From Myxococcales bacterium (lineage in GTDB: Bacteria; Myxococcota; Myxococcia; Myxococcales; 40CM-4-68-19), in the NCBI GenBank assembly GCA_020201435.1, contig JAIVGS010000003.1, positions 1-48,882 on the forward strand: DNA of 48,882 bases, in the 5' to 3' direction. A program made the position numbers and the translations under genes. The notes under the pieces were generated by a model. It was not told where the DNA came from and did not search any database. It saw only the letters and a list, made by a program, of their open reading frames with translations. Below, one piece after another: positions 4,525-21,028 of this stretch. How positions within the stretch are numbered: the first letter of the stretch is position 1; each line of letters begins with the position of its first letter.

Positions 4525-5316
4525 TCACTTCACCGCCGCTTCGCGTTCCAGCCAGTCGACGCCGCCGCGGCCGTCGCGGAGCACGACCCAGAAGCGAACG
4601 TTTTGGCCGGCGGTTTTCGGAGCGGTCCATTCGACCCAGGTCGGAGCCGGTTGGCCGGTCGCGGTCACGTCGGTCGAATGCAGCCAGGCGAGCGTGCCGT
4701 CGGTGGCGAAGAAACTGAACAGGTAGCGCTCGGTCGGGTCGTGTTTTTCGGCGGCGATCGGCTGCAGGCGGATCGTTCCGCCGGCGTGCGCCTCGGGAAT
4801 CTGGAGATCGACGAGCCGCGGGTTGAGGTTCGCCGGGCCCTTCAGCGGAGTGCGCAGGGTCAGCGTCGCGAATCCGGAGAGATTCGCGAGGTCGGCGGCC
4901 GCGTCGAAACCGATCAGGAGCGGCACGCCTCGATCGAGAGCGGCGACGACGGAGCCGCCGTCGAACGGGGTGGTGGCGGCGAGCTCGACGATGCGCGGGT
5001 CCGCGAGATCGAGGCGCGCCGCGAGCGGTCCGGCGTCGGGGAGATCGATCCCTGCGCTGCCCGGACAGTCGAGGGTCGGCGAGGGTACGCCGCTCAAATC
5101 GGTGCAGAGGGCGAACCGGATCGAAATCGGAGCGCCCGACGGATCGACGGCGAGCGCGGTCAAGGTCGTCGACGGCAGTCCCGCGTCGGGCTGCACGATC
5201 AGCTCCGGCGGCTCCGCCTTGATCCCCAGTACGCGCAGCTTGCTGACGTGCGATTGGGCCTCGAGGCCGGCCGGACAGCCGGCGGCGAGCAGTCCGATGG
5301 CGAGCAGCAGGCGCAT
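4525..5316 (-). CDS. Predicted lipoprotein, function unknown
   Basis: 263-residue exported protein. The N-terminus MRLLLAIGLLAAGC looks like a short lipoprotein signal with lipobox AAGC, giving Cys14 as the lipidation site. The remainder is beta-rich, with WVEWTAPKTAGQNVRFWVVLRDGRGG near the end resembling an Ig-like or fibronectin-like strand pattern; I do not recognise a family. The ATG overlaps the stop of the TonB-dependent receptor by one base (TGATG), so the two are very likely co-translated and this protein may be a surface or periplasmic partner of the receptor. A longer open frame continues upstream inside the receptor gene but has no signal peptide. Confidence 0.72.
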   Translation of the reverse strand: MRLLLAIGLLAAGCPAGLEAQSHVSKLRVLGIKAEPPELIVQPDAGLPSTTLTALAVDPSGAPISIRFALCTDLSGVPSPTLDCPGSAGIDLPDAGPLAARLDLADPRIVELAATTPFDGGSVVAALDRGVPLLIGFDAAADLANLSGFATLTLRTPLKGPANLNPRLVDLQIPEAHAGGTIRLQPIAAEKHDPTERYLFSFFATDGTLAWLHSTDVTATGQPAPTWVEWTAPKTAGQNVRFWVVLRDGRGGVDWLEREAAVK

Positions 5317-7880
5317 CAAAACGACCCTTTCACGCCCAGCGTCGGGATCACCGGCAAGCCTTCGAACCAGGCGTGCTGCGAGAAGTCGTAGCTGTAGACG
5401 GAGCCTTCGATCGATCGATGGTTGTACGCGTTGAGCACGTCGACATACGCGTCGAGCATCCAGGCGTCGAACGTCCAGGTGCGATCGAGCCGTACGTCGA
5501 GCTGGTGGAACGTCGGCAGGCGCGACGAGTTGATCGGGCCGTAGATCGGCAGATACGCGTCGAAGTTGGCGAGGTAGCGCGAGCCGATCACGGGCGTGTC
5601 CGGATTTCCGGTGATGATTCGATAACGGCCGCCGATCTGCCAGCCGCCGCCGAATCGCCAGGAGGCGACCGCGGTGAGGTTGTGGGTCTGGTCGAAATCG
5701 AAGAGCCGGCGCCGGTCGCCGGGACGATCGATGCGATCGCTTCGCGATAGGGTATATGCGATCCAGCCGAACAATCGCTCCGACAGCTCCTTTCTGATCA
5801 GTATTTCGAGTCCGAAGACGCGGCCGACGCCGGCGTTGTCGAGAAGGTCGGGCGTGTCGTTGCGGACGATCAGCTCCGAGAGACCTTTGTAGAACCCTTC
5901 GACGCTGGCGAAAAAGCCCGGCAGCGGCCGCAGCTCGACGCCGAGCGTCGCCTGCCACGCGCGCTCAGGGAGGATGGCAGGATTGCCGAACGGGCGCGCG
6001 GCGTCTCCGTTGCGCGCGCCTTCCGAGTACATGCCGAGGCCGCCTTTCACGGCGACCTTTTCCGAAGGCTCCCAACGGGCCGAGAGCCGCGGCGTGATCG
6101 TCCCCGTCGTATTCGATTCACGCGGCGAATATCGATAGAGATCGGCGCGCAGGCCGGGCGTGACCGAGAGGTTCGGCAGCAGGTGGATGCGCGCCTCGGC
6201 CCAGACGCCCGGCGACAGGCGATTGAAGAGCGTGGGCGCGAGCGAGATCGTCGCGTCGTCGGGACGCGGGCTTTGGGTGTTGTAATCGCCCTCGCGGAAA
6301 AGAAACGACTGGCGAAAAACTGCCGAGACCAGCAGCCGGCGATTCGCGACGTCGATGCCCGAGGCGATGCCGAGATTTTCCGAGACCTCCCAGGTGGCGG
6401 TGCTGCGCAGGTAGGTGTCGTGGGCATCGAGCAGGAAGTTGCTCGGACCGACGACGAATTTGAGGAGCAGCTTCTCGAACATCGCCACCGTGTTCAGCGA
6501 CAGGCTGCCGTTGCGCCACTCGTGCTTGAACCGGAATTGCTGGAAGCCGGTCTCGGCGTCGATCGAGCCGGAGAGATTCGGATCCTGCTCGAGCGGGCGC
6601 TCGACGAGGAGGCCGAGCGCGTCGTCGGAGGTGAGCGCGATCAACGAGAGCCGGTGCGCGCTGCCCGGCGGTTGCCAGTCGACGCGCAGTTGCGCATCGT
6701 AGTAGCGCGGCGCGACGGTCAAACCGACGTCGCCGTTCGACGAAACCGCCGCGCGCAGCACGAAGTCGATGTAGCTGCGGCGGCCGGCGACCGCGACGGT
6801 GAGACCGGGGAGGATCTTTCCCTCGACCAGCGCGCTCGATTCGAGCAGGTTCAGGTTGGCGTAGCCGTGCGGCTCCTCGCGGAGGTTGCGGGTGCGCACT
6901 TCGACGAGGCCGCCGGTGAGGTCCCCGTATGCGGCGCTGAAGTTGCCCGGGATGTAATCGATCGCGTCGAGGAGATCGGGGTTGAACGTCGAGGAGAGCG
7001 CGCCGAAGTGGAAGAGCAGCGGGATCGGCTCGCCGTCGAGGTAGACCAGCGAGTCGCCCGGCTTGCTGCCGCGGATGACGAGGAGGCCGCCGCCGATCGG
7101 GCTGGTGCGCGCGACGCCGGGGAGGTCCTCGACGATCTTGACGGCGTCTCCCTGCGCGCCGGGTATCTTGTCGAACTCCTCCCTGCTGACGACGGTGTGG
7201 GAGATCTCGCGCCGCTCGCGCTCGCCCTGTACGGTCGCCTCGTAGGGGCTCGCGTAGACGGGCTGCAGGCGGTATTCGACCTCGAGTTTTTCGCCGGGCT
7301 TTACCGTTTCACGCGCAGTGAAACGCTGGTAGCCGGGAGCGGCGATGACGATCTCGATCGGGCGGCCCTCGGGAACTCCGCGGAGCTCGAAGCGGCCGTC
7401 CTTGTCGGTGAGCGCGGAAAGGTCGTCAGCGAGCACTTCGATGCCCGACAGCTTGCGGCGCGTGCCGCGCTCGCGGACCTGGCCGGCGAGGTTGACGGGC
7501 GTCTCCTGTGCGGCGATCGGTTTCAGCTTCGGCGGTGCGGCGAAGTTGAATGCGTACTGGATGCGGACGGCGATCGGCTCGTCGCCGCGGCGGGCGGGTT
7601 CGAAGCGCAATTTCCGCGCTGCGGCGAGCGCCGATTCATCGAATCCCGGCTGGGGCGCCGAAAGGACGCGGACGTTCTGCGGCAAGCCTTTTTCGTCGAC
7701 GTCGAGCTGCAGCAGGACGCGCGCCGCGGTCGTCGCGCCCGGCGGATAGTCGGCCATGACCGGCTCGAGGAGCCGCGGCGGGCTCAAGGCCTCGGGCTCG
7801 CTCTTGTCGCGCACCGGGTCCGGCACCGGCTGCGCGAGCGCGGCGTGGGAAATGACGAACAGGACGAGGAGCCGGCGCAT
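5316..7880 (-). CDS. TonB-dependent outer-membrane receptor with N-terminal TonB-like domain
   Basis: 854-residue outer-membrane receptor. Domain order: signal peptide (residues 1-16, ending AALA); a TonB C-terminal-like domain at about 35-115 (ADYPPGATTAARVLLQLDV, FDESALAAARKLRFEPA); a carboxypeptidase-regulatory-like beta domain at about 128-205 (LAGQVRERGTRRKLSGIEV, DGRFELRGVPEG); a plug domain (ISHTVVSREEFDKIPG, GGLLVIRGSKPGDSLVYLDG); and a beta-barrel ending in an aromatic-rich strand with terminal Phe. In classical systems the TonB domain is a separate inner-membrane protein, so its position here at the mature N-terminus of the receptor is notable. The gene starts 3 bp after the tyrA stop and overlaps the lipoprotein gene. 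The substrate is unknown. Confidence 0.9.
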   Translation of the reverse strand: MRRLLVLFVISHAALAQPVPDPVRDKSEPEALSPPRLLEPVMADYPPGATTAARVLLQLDVDEKGLPQNVRVLSAPQPGFDESALAAARKLRFEPARRGDEPIAVRIQYAFNFAAPPKLKPIAAQETPVNLAGQVRERGTRRKLSGIEVLADDLSALTDKDGRFELRGVPEGRPIEIVIAAPGYQRFTARETVKPGEKLEVEYRLQPVYASPYEATVQGERERREISHTVVSREEFDKIPGAQGDAVKIVEDLPGVARTSPIGGGLLVIRGSKPGDSLVYLDGEPIPLLFHFGALSSTFNPDLLDAIDYIPGNFSAAYGDLTGGLVEVRTRNLREEPHGYANLNLLESSALVEGKILPGLTVAVAGRRSYIDFVLRAAVSSNGDVGLTVAPRYYDAQLRVDWQPPGSAHRLSLIALTSDDALGLLVERPLEQDPNLSGSIDAETGFQQFRFKHEWRNGSLSLNTVAMFEKLLLKFVVGPSNFLLDAHDTYLRSTATWEVSENLGIASGIDVANRRLLVSAVFRQSFLFREGDYNTQSPRPDDATISLAPTLFNRLSPGVWAEARIHLLPNLSVTPGLRADLYRYSPRESNTTGTITPRLSARWEPSEKVAVKGGLGMYSEGARNGDAARPFGNPAILPERAWQATLGVELRPLPGFFASVEGFYKGLSELIVRNDTPDLLDNAGVGRVFGLEILIRKELSERLFGWIAYTLSRSDRIDRPGDRRRLFDFDQTHNLTAVASWRFGGGWQIGGRYRIITGNPDTPVIGSRYLANFDAYLPIYGPINSSRLPTFHQLDVRLDRTWTFDAWMLDAYVDVLNAYNHRSIEGSVYSYDFSQHAWFEGLPVIPTLGVKGSF

Positions 7881-13139: not shown

Positions 13140-14387
13140 TCAGACTTCGGGAACGGTCAGCGTGATGCGCGTGCCGCGGCCCTCGGTGGATTCGACCCTC
13201 ATCTCGCCGCCTTCGCGCTCGACGACGTGGCGGGCCAGATAGAGCCCGAGCCCGGTGCCGTGGCCGGGCTCCTTGGTGGTGAAAAACGGCTCGCCGATGC
13301 GGCGAAGGAGCGCCTCGGGGACGCCGACGCCGTTGTCGGCGACCGTCAGGTGCAGCTCGTCGCGCGACCGGGACAGGGAGACGCGCACTTCGCGCGCGGG
13401 CCGGCCCTCGGTGGCTTCCGCGGCGTTGTCGAGAAGATTGGCGATCGCCTGCTCGAACGCGCGAACCGGCAGGCAGGCCCGTGCTCGCGTCGCGCCGGGC
13501 TCCACCGCCAGCTGCGGCTGCGGGCCGGGCCGCCCTTCGTGCCAGCGCCTGACCGCGGCCTCGACGACCGGAGCGACCTCGAACTCTTTCGCCTCCTCCG
13601 ATTCGGCGCCGCCGCGGGGGGCGAGCATGTTGCTGATGATCTCCTTGCAACGCTGCACCTGCCGGCGGATCTCCTCGGCCTCGGCCCGGCGATCGCCGTC
13701 GAGCTGCGCCGCGAGCTCACCGGCGAGGATCGCGATGGTGCCGAGCGGAGTGTTGAGCTCGTGCGCGGTGCCGGCCGCGAGCGTGCCGAGAGCGGCGAGG
13801 CGTTCGGCGGCTTCGGCGTCCGATCGCGCGCGATCGAGCTGCTCGCCGCGCTTGCGCAGCGACTCGCTCATCCGCAGCGAGAAGGTGGTGACGAACGCGG
13901 CCGCGACGACGAAGGCGATGAAGCGCCCGCGCAGGTGGAGCAGCGTCGAGTCGCCGCGGAGGACCAGCTCCTCGGCGGGAATGATCTGAAGGCCGCTGAA
14001 AGCGAGGACGCTGCAGGCGGCGACGAAGGTGCTCCAGCGCGCGGGCAGGATCACCGCGCTGATCGTGATGTGGACCAGGTAGAGCACGGCGAACGGGTTC
14101 TCGCGGCCGCCGGAGAGCGCGAGCAGCGCGGTGAGCTCGGCGATGTCGGCGAGCAGGTTGAGCGCGCAGGCGCGATCGGTCGGCCGCCCGCCGCGCGCGA
14201 GCCACACCTGGACCGCGACGTTGCCGAGCGCGAGCGCGCCGCAGGCCGCGAACATCGCGGGGAACGGGAGCGGGCTGTCGAGAAACCGGCTCGCGAGCAG
14301 GATGGTGATCACCTGCCCGCCCACTGCGCCCCAGCGCAGCCGGACGATCCAGCGCAGGTTGATTCGCGCCGCGGACTCAACGCTCAT
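13140..14387 (-). CDS. regB: RegB/PrrB/ActS-type redox sensor histidine kinase
   Basis: 415-residue membrane histidine kinase. About six transmembrane segments occupy residues 1-170 and include GGRENPF at 93-99, matching the GGxxNPF heptapeptide linked to quinone sensing in RegB. The H-box AAGTAHELNTPLGT carries the phosphorylated His209. In the dimer helix, QVQRCKEI places Cys247 where RegB has its redox-active cysteine. N box NLLDNAAEA, G1 DNGVGVP and G2 GTGLGL follow. Known RegB kinases lower their activity when the quinone pool or the cysteine is oxidised; that this protein does so is inferred from the conserved residues. Its start overlaps the upstream fatty acid hydroxylase stop by 11 bases. 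Confidence 0.92.
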   Translation of the reverse strand: MSVESAARINLRWIVRLRWGAVGGQVITILLASRFLDSPLPFPAMFAACGALALGNVAVQVWLARGGRPTDRACALNLLADIAELTALLALSGGRENPFAVLYLVHITISAVILPARWSTFVAACSVLAFSGLQIIPAEELVLRGDSTLLHLRGRFIAFVVAAAFVTTFSLRMSESLRKRGEQLDRARSDAEAAERLAALGTLAAGTAHELNTPLGTIAILAGELAAQLDGDRRAEAEEIRRQVQRCKEIISNMLAPRGGAESEEAKEFEVAPVVEAAVRRWHEGRPGPQPQLAVEPGATRARACLPVRAFEQAIANLLDNAAEATEGRPAREVRVSLSRSRDELHLTVADNGVGVPEALLRRIGEPFFTTKEPGHGTGLGLYLARHVVEREGGEMRVESTEGRGTRITLTVPEV

Positions 14388-14991
14388 GGGTGCCGAACAG
14401 CCGGTCGCAGATCGGGAACGTGATGTTGAAGTTCGTGCGGTTCATGTTGGCCGGGTCGTGGTGCGCCTGGTGATGGAGGCGCAGCTCCCCGCCGAGGCCG
14501 AGGTGGTACGCGAGGTGGAGCCACTCGTAGAGCAGGTAGTAGGACATCGCGGTGGCGACGAAGAACGCCGCGACGTTCATTCCGGCGACGGCCCGGAGCA
14601 GAAAGCCGATCGGGAGCGCGAATAGCCCGAAGAAGAAGAGGAGCAGCACCGGCGGGAAGAGCACCATCTTGAAATCGCGCGTGCTCTCGAGCTGCATCGA
14701 ATCGTGGGTGAAGAAGTGGTGATGCATCAGCGTATGGCGTTTGAAGACCAGCCCGAGGAACCGGCGGCGGTTGTGCATCGGCCCGCGGTGCGCGAGCCAC
14801 TCGACCAGATTGGCGTAGAGGAACGTGATCGGGACCGTCAGCAGCGACCAGCCCGGGTGTTGCACCTTCATCGCGGCGTACGCGATCACGGAGAACGCGA
14901 GCGCGTTCACGAATCCGAAATGCAGGACGCCGCTGTAGCGCGGCCCGAGGATTTCGGCGCGGGTCTGCGCCCGGAATTCGGCGACCTCCAT
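14377..14991 (-). CDS. Fatty acid hydroxylase / sterol desaturase superfamily protein
   Basis: 204-residue integral membrane protein with four or so hydrophobic segments and the histidine clusters of the di-iron hydroxylase superfamily: HRGPMH, HTLMHHHFF and HHQAHHDP. Such enzymes use O2 and electrons to hydroxylate or desaturate a lipid acyl chain, sterol or carotenoid; the substrate cannot be deduced. It is the first gene of the operon with the RegB/RegA redox pair, which fits redox or oxygen control of an oxygen-using enzyme. Its ATG lies in the palindrome CCATGG (14988-14993), directly back to back with the YcaO gene, so its promoter must lie within the YcaO coding region. Confidence 0.85.
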   Translation of the reverse strand: MEVAEFRAQTRAEILGPRYSGVLHFGFVNALAFSVIAYAAMKVQHPGWSLLTVPITFLYANLVEWLAHRGPMHNRRRFLGLVFKRHTLMHHHFFTHDSMQLESTRDFKMVLFPPVLLLFFFGLFALPIGFLLRAVAGMNVAAFFVATAMSYYLLYEWLHLAYHLGLGGELRLHHQAHHDPANMNRTNFNITFPICDRLFGTHER

Positions 14992-15016
14992 GGGCGCAGC
15001 ATATAACGGCGTCCGG

Positions 15017-15988
15017 GTGGATGACCTGCAGCGAACGCTGGGAGTGACGCGCGTGGCGCGCGTGACCGGGCTCGATCGCGCCGGGGTCGAGGTGGCGTGC
15101 GCGGTGCGGCCGGGCGGGCACGTCCTGCAGGTATCGAACGGGAAGGGCTTCAGCTGGGAGGAAGCGCGCGCCTCCGCGCTGTCGGAAGCCGCCGAGCTCT
15201 GGGCGGCGGAGCGTCCGGTGGCGCGCGATCTCGTCTACGCTTCGATCGACGAGCTCAGCGGCGAGAACGTCGTGTGGCCGAACGATCTCGTCGCTCCCCG
15301 GCTCTGGTCGCGCCGGACGCGGATCGCGTGGGTCCGCGCGACGGACGGCGCGTTCGTTCCGGCGCAGACGGTCTACTGCCCGCCGCAGGGCGCGCCGCCG
15401 CTCGGCCCGGCGGTCTTTCGCTGGAGCACGAACGGGATGGGGGCGCATCCGGTCAAGCGTCTGGCGCTGCAACATGCAGTGCTCGAAGCCTGCGAGCGCG
15501 ATCAGCTCGCCCGGGCGCTGCCGCAGGGATGGACGCGGAAGGCGATCGCGGCGCGCAAGCTCCACGCGTCGTCGCTGCCGCTCTGGCGAAAGCTGCGCGA
15601 CGCGCGGCTCGAGGCGCACGTCTTCGATCTCTCGTCGAGAGACTTGCCGGTTGCGGGCGTGGTGCTGATCGATCTCGACGAGGGGCCGATCCCGGTCACC
15701 GCGGGGTATTGCTGCGCGCTGACGGCGACGCGTGCGGTGAATGGCGCGCTGCTCGAAGCCGCGCAGTCCCGGTTGACCGACCTGCATGGCGCGCGCGAGG
15801 ACGTCGCGCACGCCGGGCCGCCGCGCGGCCTGCGTGAAGCCTGCGAGCGGGCGCGTCCGGTGCGCGGGCTTCGTCAGATGCCGGCGGCGCGCCGGTTGCC
15901 CTCGCTGACGTTCGTCGAGCTCTCGTCCGAGCCGCTGCACGTGGTGAAAGTGATTGCGCCCAGGATGCGCGTTTCGGGGCTGTTGTGA
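15017..15988 (+). CDS. YcaO-domain cyclodehydratase/thioamidation-type enzyme
   Basis: ATP-dependent YcaO enzyme (about 323 residues). ATP-site regions are visible in order: VSNGKGFSWEEARASALSEA with following AAE, then STNGMGAHP with HAVLEACERD, and a third block VTAGYCCALTAT with LLEAAQSR. It lacks the C-terminal PxPxP tail of azoline-forming YcaO proteins. YcaO enzymes encoded beside TfuA activate a backbone amide and install a thioamide; known targets are RiPP precursors and McrA in methanogens. The GTG at 15017 is chosen because it leads directly into DDLQRTLGVTRVARVTGLD; ATG 14990 in the same frame adds nine residues and overlaps the divergent start codon. The gene overlaps TfuA by 4 nt. 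No precursor peptide or leader-binding domain is seen. Confidence 0.88.
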   Translation: MDDLQRTLGVTRVARVTGLDRAGVEVACAVRPGGHVLQVSNGKGFSWEEARASALSEAAELWAAERPVARDLVYASIDELSGENVVWPNDLVAPRLWSRRTRIAWVRATDGAFVPAQTVYCPPQGAPPLGPAVFRWSTNGMGAHPVKRLALQHAVLEACERDQLARALPQGWTRKAIAARKLHASSLPLWRKLRDARLEAHVFDLSSRDLPVAGVVLIDLDEGPIPVTAGYCCALTATRAVNGALLEAAQSRLTDLHGAREDVAHAGPPRGLREACERARPVRGLRQMPAARRLPSLTFVELSSEPLHVVKVIAPRMRVSGLL

Positions 15989-16848
15989 AGATCGCGTTCC
16001 TCGGTCCGTCGCTGTCCGGTTCCGAAGCGCGCGGATTCACGGTGCTGCCTCCCGCGCAGCAGGGGGACGTCTGGCGCGCCCTGCGCAGGAATCCTTCCGT
16101 CATCGCGTTGATCGACGGCGTGTTCGAATCGCGGCCGAGCGTCTGGCACCACGAGATCCTCGACGCGCTCGACGCGGGCGTGGCTGTCTTCGGCGGCGCC
16201 AGCATGGGGGCGTTGCGCGCGGCCGAGCTGCACCCGTTCGGCATGGTCGGCGTGGGGCGGATTTTTCGCTGGTATCGCGACGCGGACGTGATCGACGACG
16301 GAGAGGTCGCGCTGCTGCACGCGGGCGCCGAGCACGGCTGGCGTCCGCTGACGGTGCCGCTGGTGAACATCCGCTGGGCGGCGTCGCAGACCTTGCGGCC
16401 GCGGCAGGCGCGTCGGGTGGTGGAGGCGTGCGCGCGGATCTTCTACCAGGACCGCACCTGGCCGCGCGTTCTGGAGCTTTTGCCGAAAGACGCGCATCGG
16501 GAGTTTCGCGCGCTCGACCTGAAAGCCGCCGACGCTCGCGAGGTGCTGCGTGCGGCCGCTGCTTCGACGTCCAGGCCCGAGCCTTCGCTCCGACGTCCTC
16601 CGCCGTCGTCGCTGGTGCGCACCCGATTGGGGCAACCGCCGAACCTGTTGGCCGGATGGGCGCGCGATCTCGGCCTGCGCGTCGAAGTGCGGCCGACGAG
16701 AGATCTCCTCGCGCTCCGCCGCGCCGAGGACGAAGCCCTGGAACGGCTCGTCCTCGATCACGCCGAGCGGATGGTCAACGACGGAATGCCGCAACCACCG
16801 GTCGATCGAACAGGTCGCGGTAGCGCACGGCGCCGGCGATCGCGATGA
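15985..16848 (+). CDS. TfuA-like protein, YcaO partner
   Basis: 287-residue TfuA-like protein from a GTG start overlapping the YcaO stop (GTGA). The TfuA core is clear at about residues 40-110: IDGVFESRPSVWHHEIL, then GASMGALRAAELHPFGMVG, then IDDGEVALLH. TfuA is the partner that supports thioamide formation by YcaO, presumably by helping supply sulfur. Beyond the core is a long Pro/Arg-rich extension ending in RGSARRRRSR; its last 74 bases run antisense into the 3' end of the convergent membrane gene. With no precursor, transporter or peptidase nearby, the target is unknown and may be a housekeeping protein or a precursor encoded elsewhere. Confidence 0.87.
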   Translation: MKIAFLGPSLSGSEARGFTVLPPAQQGDVWRALRRNPSVIALIDGVFESRPSVWHHEILDALDAGVAVFGGASMGALRAAELHPFGMVGVGRIFRWYRDADVIDDGEVALLHAGAEHGWRPLTVPLVNIRWAASQTLRPRQARRVVEACARIFYQDRTWPRVLELLPKDAHREFRALDLKAADAREVLRAAAASTSRPEPSLRRPPPSSLVRTRLGQPPNLLAGWARDLGLRVEVRPTRDLLALRRAEDEALERLVLDHAERMVNDGMPQPPVDRTGRGSARRRRSR

Positions 16849-18055
16849 GGGCGCCGGCCACCACGAGCGCTGCGACGGCAACTCGCCAGCCGCGAGTGGA
16901 GCTGCGCCAGGCGACCACCGTCGCGAGCGCGAGCCACGGCAGGAACGGAACGAAGTAGCGCGGGCCGTAACAGAAGCCGCCCGCCTCGACGTCCGCGGCG
17001 GCGAGGACGAGGAGCACCGGCGCGGCGCCCCATGCCAGATCACGCAGCAATCCCCGCTCACCGCGCACCGCGGCGCGTGCAGCGACGAAGAATCCGGCGG
17101 CCGCCCAGGGCACGAAGGTGAAGACGCCGTGAGCGTCGCCGAAGAAGAGATCGCCGAGCTCGCCGAGCCCCTTGGCAGGCTCGAATCCGGACGTGCCGCT
17201 GATCAACGGCGTATGCGCGAGCAGCAGGTTGAAGACGACGATCGCCGGCCATCCGGCGGCGAAGGTGAACAAGAGGCGCTGCGCGTCGGCGCGCCGACCT
17301 TCGCGAAATCGCAGCGCCGACCAGCCCAGCGCGACGAGCCCGAACGGCGGCTTCACCGCGGCGGCCGCGAAGCAGAGCGCCCCGCACAGCGCGGGCTTCC
17401 CGGCCACCAGCGCCCACAGCGCCCCAATCAGCGCCAGGCCGATCGCCGGCTCGGAGAAGAACGATCGTGCATATGGAAGCAACGAGCTGGCCACGCCCGT
17501 GAGCAGGACCGCGGCCAGCGCTTCACGCGCAGTGAAACCGGCGCGCACCGCCGCCCGCTCCATCGTCACCAGCGTGCCGAAACAGATCAACGCGACCGCG
17601 ACGATCGCGAACGGCTCCGGGTCGCTCGGGCGCAGCGGCGCGAGCAGCAGCGCGACCAGCGCGGGAAACGCCGGCGGATGCGCGGGCACCTCGATCGCGT
17701 CCTTCTCGAATCCCGGCTGCAGCCGCTCGAAGCCACCCTCCTTCCGGTGGCTGCGCCAGTCGAAGACGCGCTGCCACAGCTGGTGCCCGCCGCTGCGGCG
17801 GTCGATCAGGATCGTATGATGATCGAGCTCGTTTCCGCGAAAGCCCGCGCCCGCTTCGTCGCCGCCGCGCCGCACGCGCAGGTAGTCATCGCCGAGCAGC
17901 AGGTCGCGATCGCGGAGGATGCTGGTGACGATCAGGTAGTAGTGCGGCTCGTCGCCGCTCACCACCGCCGGGCGCCTCAGCGTGAATCCTTCGGAGGGCG
18001 CCCAGCCGACGAACGGCACCAGCAGGAAGACCGCGAGCAGGGGAGCGAACCGCAT
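16775..18055 (-). CDS. Multi-pass membrane protein, GT-C glycosyltransferase-like
   Basis: 426-residue integral membrane protein with about ten hydrophobic segments. After the first segment comes SGDEPHYYLI, an acidic motif in the first external loop like that of GT-C enzymes (PMT/GT39 and relatives) that transfer sugars from lipid-linked donors. A short C-terminal tail (YRDLFDRPVVAAFRR) follows the last segment. The start ATG at 18055 gives a signal-like first helix; the much longer frame upstream is antisense to two plus-strand genes. It resembles in layout the other membrane protein at 21090-22541. Function is a fold-level inference only. Confidence 0.72.
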   Translation of the reverse strand: MRFAPLLAVFLLVPFVGWAPSEGFTLRRPAVVSGDEPHYYLIVTSILRDRDLLLGDDYLRVRRGGDEAGAGFRGNELDHHTILIDRRSGGHQLWQRVFDWRSHRKEGGFERLQPGFEKDAIEVPAHPPAFPALVALLLAPLRPSDPEPFAIVAVALICFGTLVTMERAAVRAGFTAREALAAVLLTGVASSLLPYARSFFSEPAIGLALIGALWALVAGKPALCGALCFAAAAVKPPFGLVALGWSALRFREGRRADAQRLLFTFAAGWPAIVVFNLLLAHTPLISGTSGFEPAKGLGELGDLFFGDAHGVFTFVPWAAAGFFVAARAAVRGERGLLRDLAWGAAPVLLVLAAADVEAGGFCYGPRYFVPFLPWLALATVVAWRSSTRGWRVAVAALVVAGALIAIAGAVRYRDLFDRPVVAAFRR

Positions 18056-18097: not shown

Positions 18098-19135
18098 ATG
18101 GAGTTTCTGCCTCGACGCCGGACGCTTCAGGCGCAGCTCCTGTATTCCTGGGTGCTGGTCAAGCGCTTCCGCTTCACCTTCTTCATGCTGCTGCTGCTCG
18201 TCTTCGGCGGCGGCACGGCGATGTACTTCCTGCTCGCGCATGCGGGCAGGCCGGTGGGCCTCGGCCGCGCGATCGTGGCTGCGTATTTCCTCCTCTTCGC
18301 CCAGCCGATCATCGACATCCCCGACAACGGCGCGGTCGAGCTGCTGGCGGTGCTGATCCCGCCGCTCGGCATCACCACCGTCGCCGAGGGCCTGGTCCGA
18401 TTCGCGTATCTCTTTTTCGCTCGGGAGCGCAACGACAAGGAGTGGTTTTCCGTGCTGGCACAAACGCTCAAGGATCACGTCGTCATCTGCGGCGCGGGGC
18501 GCGTCGGCTTCCGCGTCTTCGAGCGTCTCCACAAGCTCGGCGTGCCGATGGTGATGATCGAGAAGGACGAGTCGAAGCCGTTCCTTGCGGAGATCCGCAA
18601 CGCGGGCGTGGCGGTGTTGATCGACGACGTGCGCGCCGCCGGCGCGCTGCAGCGGGCCAATCTCACCAGGGCCCGCGCGATCGTCTGCGCCACCGACGAC
18701 GATCTCGCGAATCTGAACGTCGCGCTCGACGCCCGCAAGCTGCGCGCGGGCATCCGCGTGGTGATGCGGTTGTTCGACGATGATCTGGTGGAGAAGACGC
18801 GATCGAGCTTCGACGCCCAGGCCTTTTCCACCTCCGCGCTCGCCGCGCCGGCGCTGGCGATGGCCGCGCTCGATCCGTCGATCAAGAATTCCTTCGAAGT
18901 CGGCGGCCGGCTGATGGTGGTCGCCGAGCTGGCCGTCTCCGGCAGCGTCTGCGGGCGTACCGTCGCGCAGCTGCGCGACGAATCGGGGGTGCTCGTCGTG
19001 CACCTGGTGCGCAAGACCGGCGAGACGATCTTCGATCCCTCGGGGCCGTGCTGCTTCGAGCCCGGCGACGTCGTCACCGTGCAGGCGACGTTGCAGGCGT
19101 ACCAGGGGTTGCGCGAGAAGCTGCTCGCCGCGTAA
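18098..19135 (+). CDS. Membrane protein with RCK (TrkA-N/TrkA-C) domains, no K+ selectivity filter
   Basis: 345-residue protein. Two hydrophobic segments with a re-entrant-like stretch between them occupy about residues 20-110. From about 130 a TrkA-N/RCK domain follows with VVICGAGRVGFRVFERL (NAD-binding glycine motif), VMIEKDE and ATDDDLANLNVA. A TrkA-C-like domain forms the last 90 residues (GRTVAQLRDESGVLVVHLVR, GDVVTVQA). The layout is that of a two-TM potassium channel with an RCK gating ring, but where TVGYG should be the sequence reads FAQPIIDIPDNG. ATG 18098 is preferred over GTG 18080. It may be a non-K+ conductance or a sensor rather than a channel. Confidence 0.78.
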   Translation: MEFLPRRRTLQAQLLYSWVLVKRFRFTFFMLLLLVFGGGTAMYFLLAHAGRPVGLGRAIVAAYFLLFAQPIIDIPDNGAVELLAVLIPPLGITTVAEGLVRFAYLFFARERNDKEWFSVLAQTLKDHVVICGAGRVGFRVFERLHKLGVPMVMIEKDESKPFLAEIRNAGVAVLIDDVRAAGALQRANLTRARAIVCATDDDLANLNVALDARKLRAGIRVVMRLFDDDLVEKTRSSFDAQAFSTSALAAPALAMAALDPSIKNSFEVGGRLMVVAELAVSGSVCGRTVAQLRDESGVLVVHLVRKTGETIFDPSGPCCFEPGDVVTVQATLQAYQGLREKLLAA

Positions 19136-19147
19136 GGAACGACGGCC

Positions 19148-21028
<1,881 letters not shown>

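Follow-up and report, generated by a model that had tools for sequence, protein, structure and literature searches.

An orphan YcaO-TfuA gene pair conserved across Myxococcales is a candidate for backbone thioamidation of a cellular protein in trans

The window, by which we mean the whole 48,882-nucleotide stretch of DNA that was analysed, comes from a Myxococcales metagenome-assembled genome (MAG; G000) in which no second YcaO was found. It carries adjacent genes for a YcaO-domain protein and a TfuA-like protein (Table 1). Both products score above the curated Pfam cut-offs (128.3 vs. 25.7 bits for PF02624, 136.6 vs. 30 bits for PF07812), which places them in the YcaO superfamily and the TfuA family, respectively. 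TfuA starts at a GTG within the YcaO stop codon (GTGA), bearing out the 4-nt overlap described in the original prediction. For YcaO, an alternative GTG start at 15017 gives a 323-aa protein that fits its relatives better than the product of the ATG. Comparison with the closest congener (L034) gave dN/dS values of ~0.29 for YcaO and ~0.26 for the TfuA core, indicating that both are under purifying selection. YcaO and TfuA are real genes.

The immediate surroundings are also as originally claimed. A fatty acid hydroxylase gene lies back to back with YcaO, the two ATG codons overlapping, and an antisense gene covers the last 74 bases of TfuA. Among the 40 pair loci examined, a PF04116 hydroxylase was present at only one other than the window's (L036), and a homologue of the antisense gene lies close to the pair at L036 alone. 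No precursor, RRE or transporter gene adjoins the window's pair. The absence of an adjoining protease holds for the immediate neighbours, but an M3 oligopeptidase gene lies further downstream and is syntenic in the window's family: in 4 of 5 family relatives examined (L032, L033, L034 and L038) it is found 3′ of the pair on the same strand, either directly after it or after the TrkA gene. At L032 (5222-10216), YcaO, TfuA, TrkA-domain and M3 genes follow one another on one strand with overlaps or gaps of at most 7 nt, an operon-like arrangement; in the window, unlike L032, the antisense gene stands between TfuA and the TrkA-domain and M3 genes.

Table 1. Features of the YcaO-TfuA locus (window coordinates)
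Feature	Position	Strand	Remarks
Fatty acid hydroxylase, divergent neighbour outside the system	14377-14991	-	PF04116 1.7e-9
YcaO-domain protein	14990-15988	+	332 aa; PF02624 E 5.2e-37
YcaO Glu66, Glu69 (= E. coli Glu75, Glu78)	15185-15196	+	kept; invariant wherever aligned
YcaO motif NGMGAHPVKRL, residues 148-158, in place of NGxxSGNxxxE	15431-15463	+	81 vs. 22 alignment
YcaO EACER, Glu166/Glu169/Arg170 (= E. coli Glu199/Glu202/Arg203)	15485-15499	+	kept, 81/81 lineage sequences
YcaO EAAQSR, Glu256/Gln259/Arg261	15755-15772	+	kept, 81/81 lineage sequences
TfuA-like protein	15985-16848	+	287 aa; PF07812 E 4.4e-40
Shortened copy of lineage-specific C-terminal TfuA domain	16546-16785	+	alignments with 20 and 36 relatives
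Arg-rich tail that relatives lack, probably read-through	16786-16848	+	overlaps antisense gene; alignments stop near residue 267
Antisense 426-aa gene, neighbour outside the system	16775-18055	-	overlaps TfuA by 74 nt
TrkA_N-domain protein	18098-19135	+	syntenic within window's family
M3 oligopeptidase	19148-21028	+	PF01432 1e-107; syntenic within window's family only

The distribution of the YcaO lineage was determined by running a lineage profile against 195 Myxococcota genomes. At least 104 Myxococcales genomes carry it, with scores of 312-582 bits; below 312 bits, the 195 genomes gave partial matches and other full-length YcaOs scoring no more than 213 bits. In a phylogenetic tree, a long-stemmed branch with 100/100 support splits the lineage from the remaining YcaOs. 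TfuA is present in 71 of 99 related genomes, and the related records belong to Myxococcales, namely Myxococcus, Corallococcus, Archangium, Anaeromyxobacter and soil Deltaproteobacteria MAGs. The M. xanthus orthologues of the pair are at 4811-5980 and 5977-7140 of L098. A myxobacterial pair also occurs in a record titled Comamonas sp. KCTC 72670 (L100), a label that is probably wrong.

What surrounds the pair depends on the family. Across 40 loci, flanking genes were consistent inside a family and different between families, and in a set of 33 loci the pair alone persisted while its neighbours varied by family; YcaO and TfuA overlap by 1-4 nt in 19 of these 33. At Anaeromyxobacter-type loci, the pair is preceded by genes that by eye resemble those for glycogen phosphorylase and M20 peptidase, and a SUI1-domain gene frequently overlaps the TfuA stop. 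At Myxococcaceae-type loci, the upstream gene encodes a peroxiredoxin or gives a weak DUF2378 match, and a DNA methylase gene lies downstream. In the window's family, a histidine kinase and a response regulator lie upstream, the M3 oligopeptidase downstream, and a TrkA-domain gene is present in several members. No clade-specific partner gene emerged from these neighbourhoods. We conclude that the pair is an order-wide, vertically inherited Myxococcales lineage without a fixed partner gene. At L039 (10720-11097), the SUI1-domain (translation initiation factor) gene overlaps the TfuA stop by 4 nt, raising the possibility of a link to translation.

No conserved short ORF was found beside the pair in the 40 loci, a search whose sensitivity is limited by shadow ORFs, and no precursor, RRE or transporter is conserved there. 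The original description of an orphan pair without a precursor is supported. The only short-ORF candidates were arginine-rich low-complexity matches and single-family genes, and these were rejected. When applied to RiPP-type control loci, an unfiltered short-ORF search returned mostly shadow ORFs. A better control is provided by the gene caller used here, which does detect a 44-aa precursor-like gene at L035. This cysteine-containing gene (5952-6086, plus strand; MNDAMPIERAKPLIIGKETIKRLKAKSAMKSYRTQTSICSYCTP) lies just upstream of a further YcaO-TfuA pair, of the RiPP type, in a genome of the window's family (G007) and looks like a thioamide RiPP precursor. RiPP-type YcaO-TfuA loci in Myxococcaceae (L166-L176) form a separate family in which, as seen at L068-L070, the pair apparently follows a gene for a protein of ~1100-1300 aa; no precursor was found.

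These data suggest that the pair modifies a cellular protein as opposed to a peptide natural product. Conservation of the pair across Myxococcales, turnover of its neighbourhood and the lack of a conserved adjacent short ORF all point to a substrate encoded in trans, and we consider it probable that the pair is a stand-alone, vertically inherited backbone-thioamidation system acting on a conserved cellular protein. The main rival is a split RiPP pathway, in which the substrate would be a small precursor peptide whose gene lies at another place in the genome. Annotation as RiPP clusters is common among bacterial YcaO-TfuA pairs (PMC8120280), other Myxococcales loci contain RiPP-type pairs, and the syntenic M3 oligopeptidase of the window's family is consistent with such a pathway. 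However, other families have no M3 gene near the pair, a precursor, RRE or transporter lies beside it in no family, and a natural-product locus would not usually be inherited vertically throughout an order while its neighbours change. Thioviridamide-type clusters share the same YcaO-TfuA enzyme pair and its presumed chemistry, but the window's pair has no precursor or tailoring genes and occupies a separate tree branch. We therefore regard a split pathway as unlikely.

Some observations count against the preferred reading. The ATP-site position of Glu191 is changed in 78 of 81 lineage sequences, as set out below. The YcaO lineage is also missing from several near-complete genomes, among them four of genus g24, in which the only pair is of the RiPP type, and the four genomes of genus g18, which have no pair at all. 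The pair is thus dispensable. In addition, identity between families is only 45-60%, which is modest if the substrate is highly conserved.

The active site of the lineage was compared in 81 lineage and 22 other YcaO sequences, with residues mapped by alignment to YcaOs in the PDB. An AlphaFold2 model of the window's YcaO (pLDDT 91.4) had M. jannaschii YcaO (6pe3) as its best PDB match. The SGN...E motif of other YcaOs is replaced in the lineage by AHP...x, so that the positions of Gly186, Asn187 and Glu191 are all changed. In 80 of 81 lineage sequences Gly has given way to His, and at the Glu191 position, corresponding to residue 158 of the window's YcaO, Glu is kept in 3 and changed in 78. 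The 22 other YcaOs have Gly in every case, Asn in 21 (the exception is Arg) and Glu in 21 (the exception, Asp, is also acidic). In E. coli YcaO structures, Glu191 is, as we understand it, a Mg2+ ligand. The original prediction had named loss of key ATP-site residues as grounds for abandoning it, and such a loss was found in part: the Asn187/Glu191 motif is lost in nearly the whole lineage, while every other conserved ATP/Mg-site residue tested is kept (Table 1).

Loss of SGN...E could mean that standard ATP-dependent thioamidation has ended, leaving an enzyme with different nucleotide or metal use, one that employs another nucleophile, or a protein with a regulatory role. The near-uniform replacement described above favours such a change. 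Against it, the counterparts of Glu75, Glu78, Glu199, Glu202 and Arg203, as well as Glu256/Gln259/Arg261, are invariant, TfuA remains linked to YcaO, and 73 of 81 lineage sequences have an acidic residue within positions 155-161, usually at 155, although the window's YcaO has none there. Retention of the other ligands would be unexpected in an inactive enzyme; we therefore read the site from these alignments as remodelled but active, and altered chemistry or a pseudoenzyme appears distinctly improbable. With its altered motif, the lineage provides a natural way to test what metal ligands YcaO catalysis requires.

The original prediction had pointed out a long Pro/Arg-rich C-terminal extension outside the usual TfuA core. 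The extension does lie beyond the 217 residues of the archaeal TfuA structure 6xp8, which the window's TfuA matches at 8e-29. It is not a peculiarity of the window's protein, however, but largely a folded domain common to the lineage and shortened here; only the last ~20 residues, which overlap the antisense gene, have no counterparts in relatives. In the M. xanthus orthologue the domain is helical and folds confidently (AlphaFold2, mean pLDDT 89.8). Its best non-TfuA structural matches in Foldseek include the chaperones SurA, PEB4 and PrsA, at E values of 0.36 or worse. Likeness to SurA was not significant by sequence (Pfam SurA_N_3, E 0.26) or in a profile-profile test against Myxococcales SurA_N domains (probability 53%), and we treat it as a weak lead. 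The domain may help in substrate binding.

Orphan thioamidating YcaOs that act on full-size proteins have precedents in the enzymes that modify McrA (PMC5589413) and uL16 (PMC13063428). The nearest curated models are the families of the methanogen McrA-glycine pair (TIGR03266 and NF033432), and the nearest fold is that of methanogen YcaO; as in the window, ycaO and tfuA are adjacent and there is no precursor peptide. The window's proteins nonetheless fall below the equivalog cut-offs, YcaO scoring 116.8 bits on NCBIfam methan_mark_1 (TIGR03266; cut-off 365) and TfuA 156.3 bits on NF033432 (cut-off 235.2), and the pair differs in being bacterial, in its altered SGN...E motif and in its extra C-terminal TfuA domain. 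No PF02249 match to McrA was found in the window's genome, while two methanogen controls were positive. Of the earlier proposal of a substrate encoded elsewhere, by analogy with McrA, the first part is the best explanation for a conserved pair with changing flanks, whereas the absence of McrA makes the analogy one of kind only.

The E. coli enzyme, which thioamidates Met82 of uL16, is likewise an orphan YcaO without a precursor, and a protein substrate is what we infer for the window's pair. In favour of uL16 as the substrate here as well, the uL16 of G000 retains the Arg-Met-Gly loop; this loop is general in bacteria, however, which weighs against the reading. Furthermore, uL16-type YcaO is acidic (pI 4.4) and not accompanied by a neighbouring TfuA (PMC13063428); the YcaO of the window adjoins TfuA and has a pI of 9.8 (lineage median 6.6). 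E. coli has no TfuA, and its YcaO keeps Glu191 and is only weakly similar to the window's protein. RoxA, a protein found together with uL16-type YcaO, is missing from the genome (no PF08007 match). Because the YcaO is basic, TfuA is present and RoxA is missing, modification of uL16 is highly improbable.

To our knowledge, YcaO installs backbone thioamides on only two cellular proteins, archaeal McrA and the uL16 of Pseudomonadota. The order-wide orphan lineage described here, which extends to Myxococcus xanthus, a genetically tractable species, hints at a third such protein and gives the search for it a concrete starting point. Among the literature on TfuA with Myxococcota and on YcaO with myxobacteria, no title or abstract describes the lineage. 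A bolder version of the preferred reading, in which a Myxococcales housekeeping protein carries a new backbone thioamide installed by a TfuA with a SurA-like substrate-binding domain together with a YcaO whose nucleotide/metal site functions although the Glu191 ligand is missing, is conceivable but doubtful.

The reaction that we propose for the window's pair is thioamidation. YcaO would activate a backbone amide oxygen in an ATP-dependent manner, TfuA would deliver sulfide, probably through hydrolysis of a thiocarboxylated ThiS-type carrier, and the product would be a peptide thioamide. Sulfur delivery by ThiS homologues, with TfuA as hydrolase, has been described (PMC13063428). Three ThiS-fold proteins are encoded in the genome, one of them by a gene that adjoins a MoaE-like gene.
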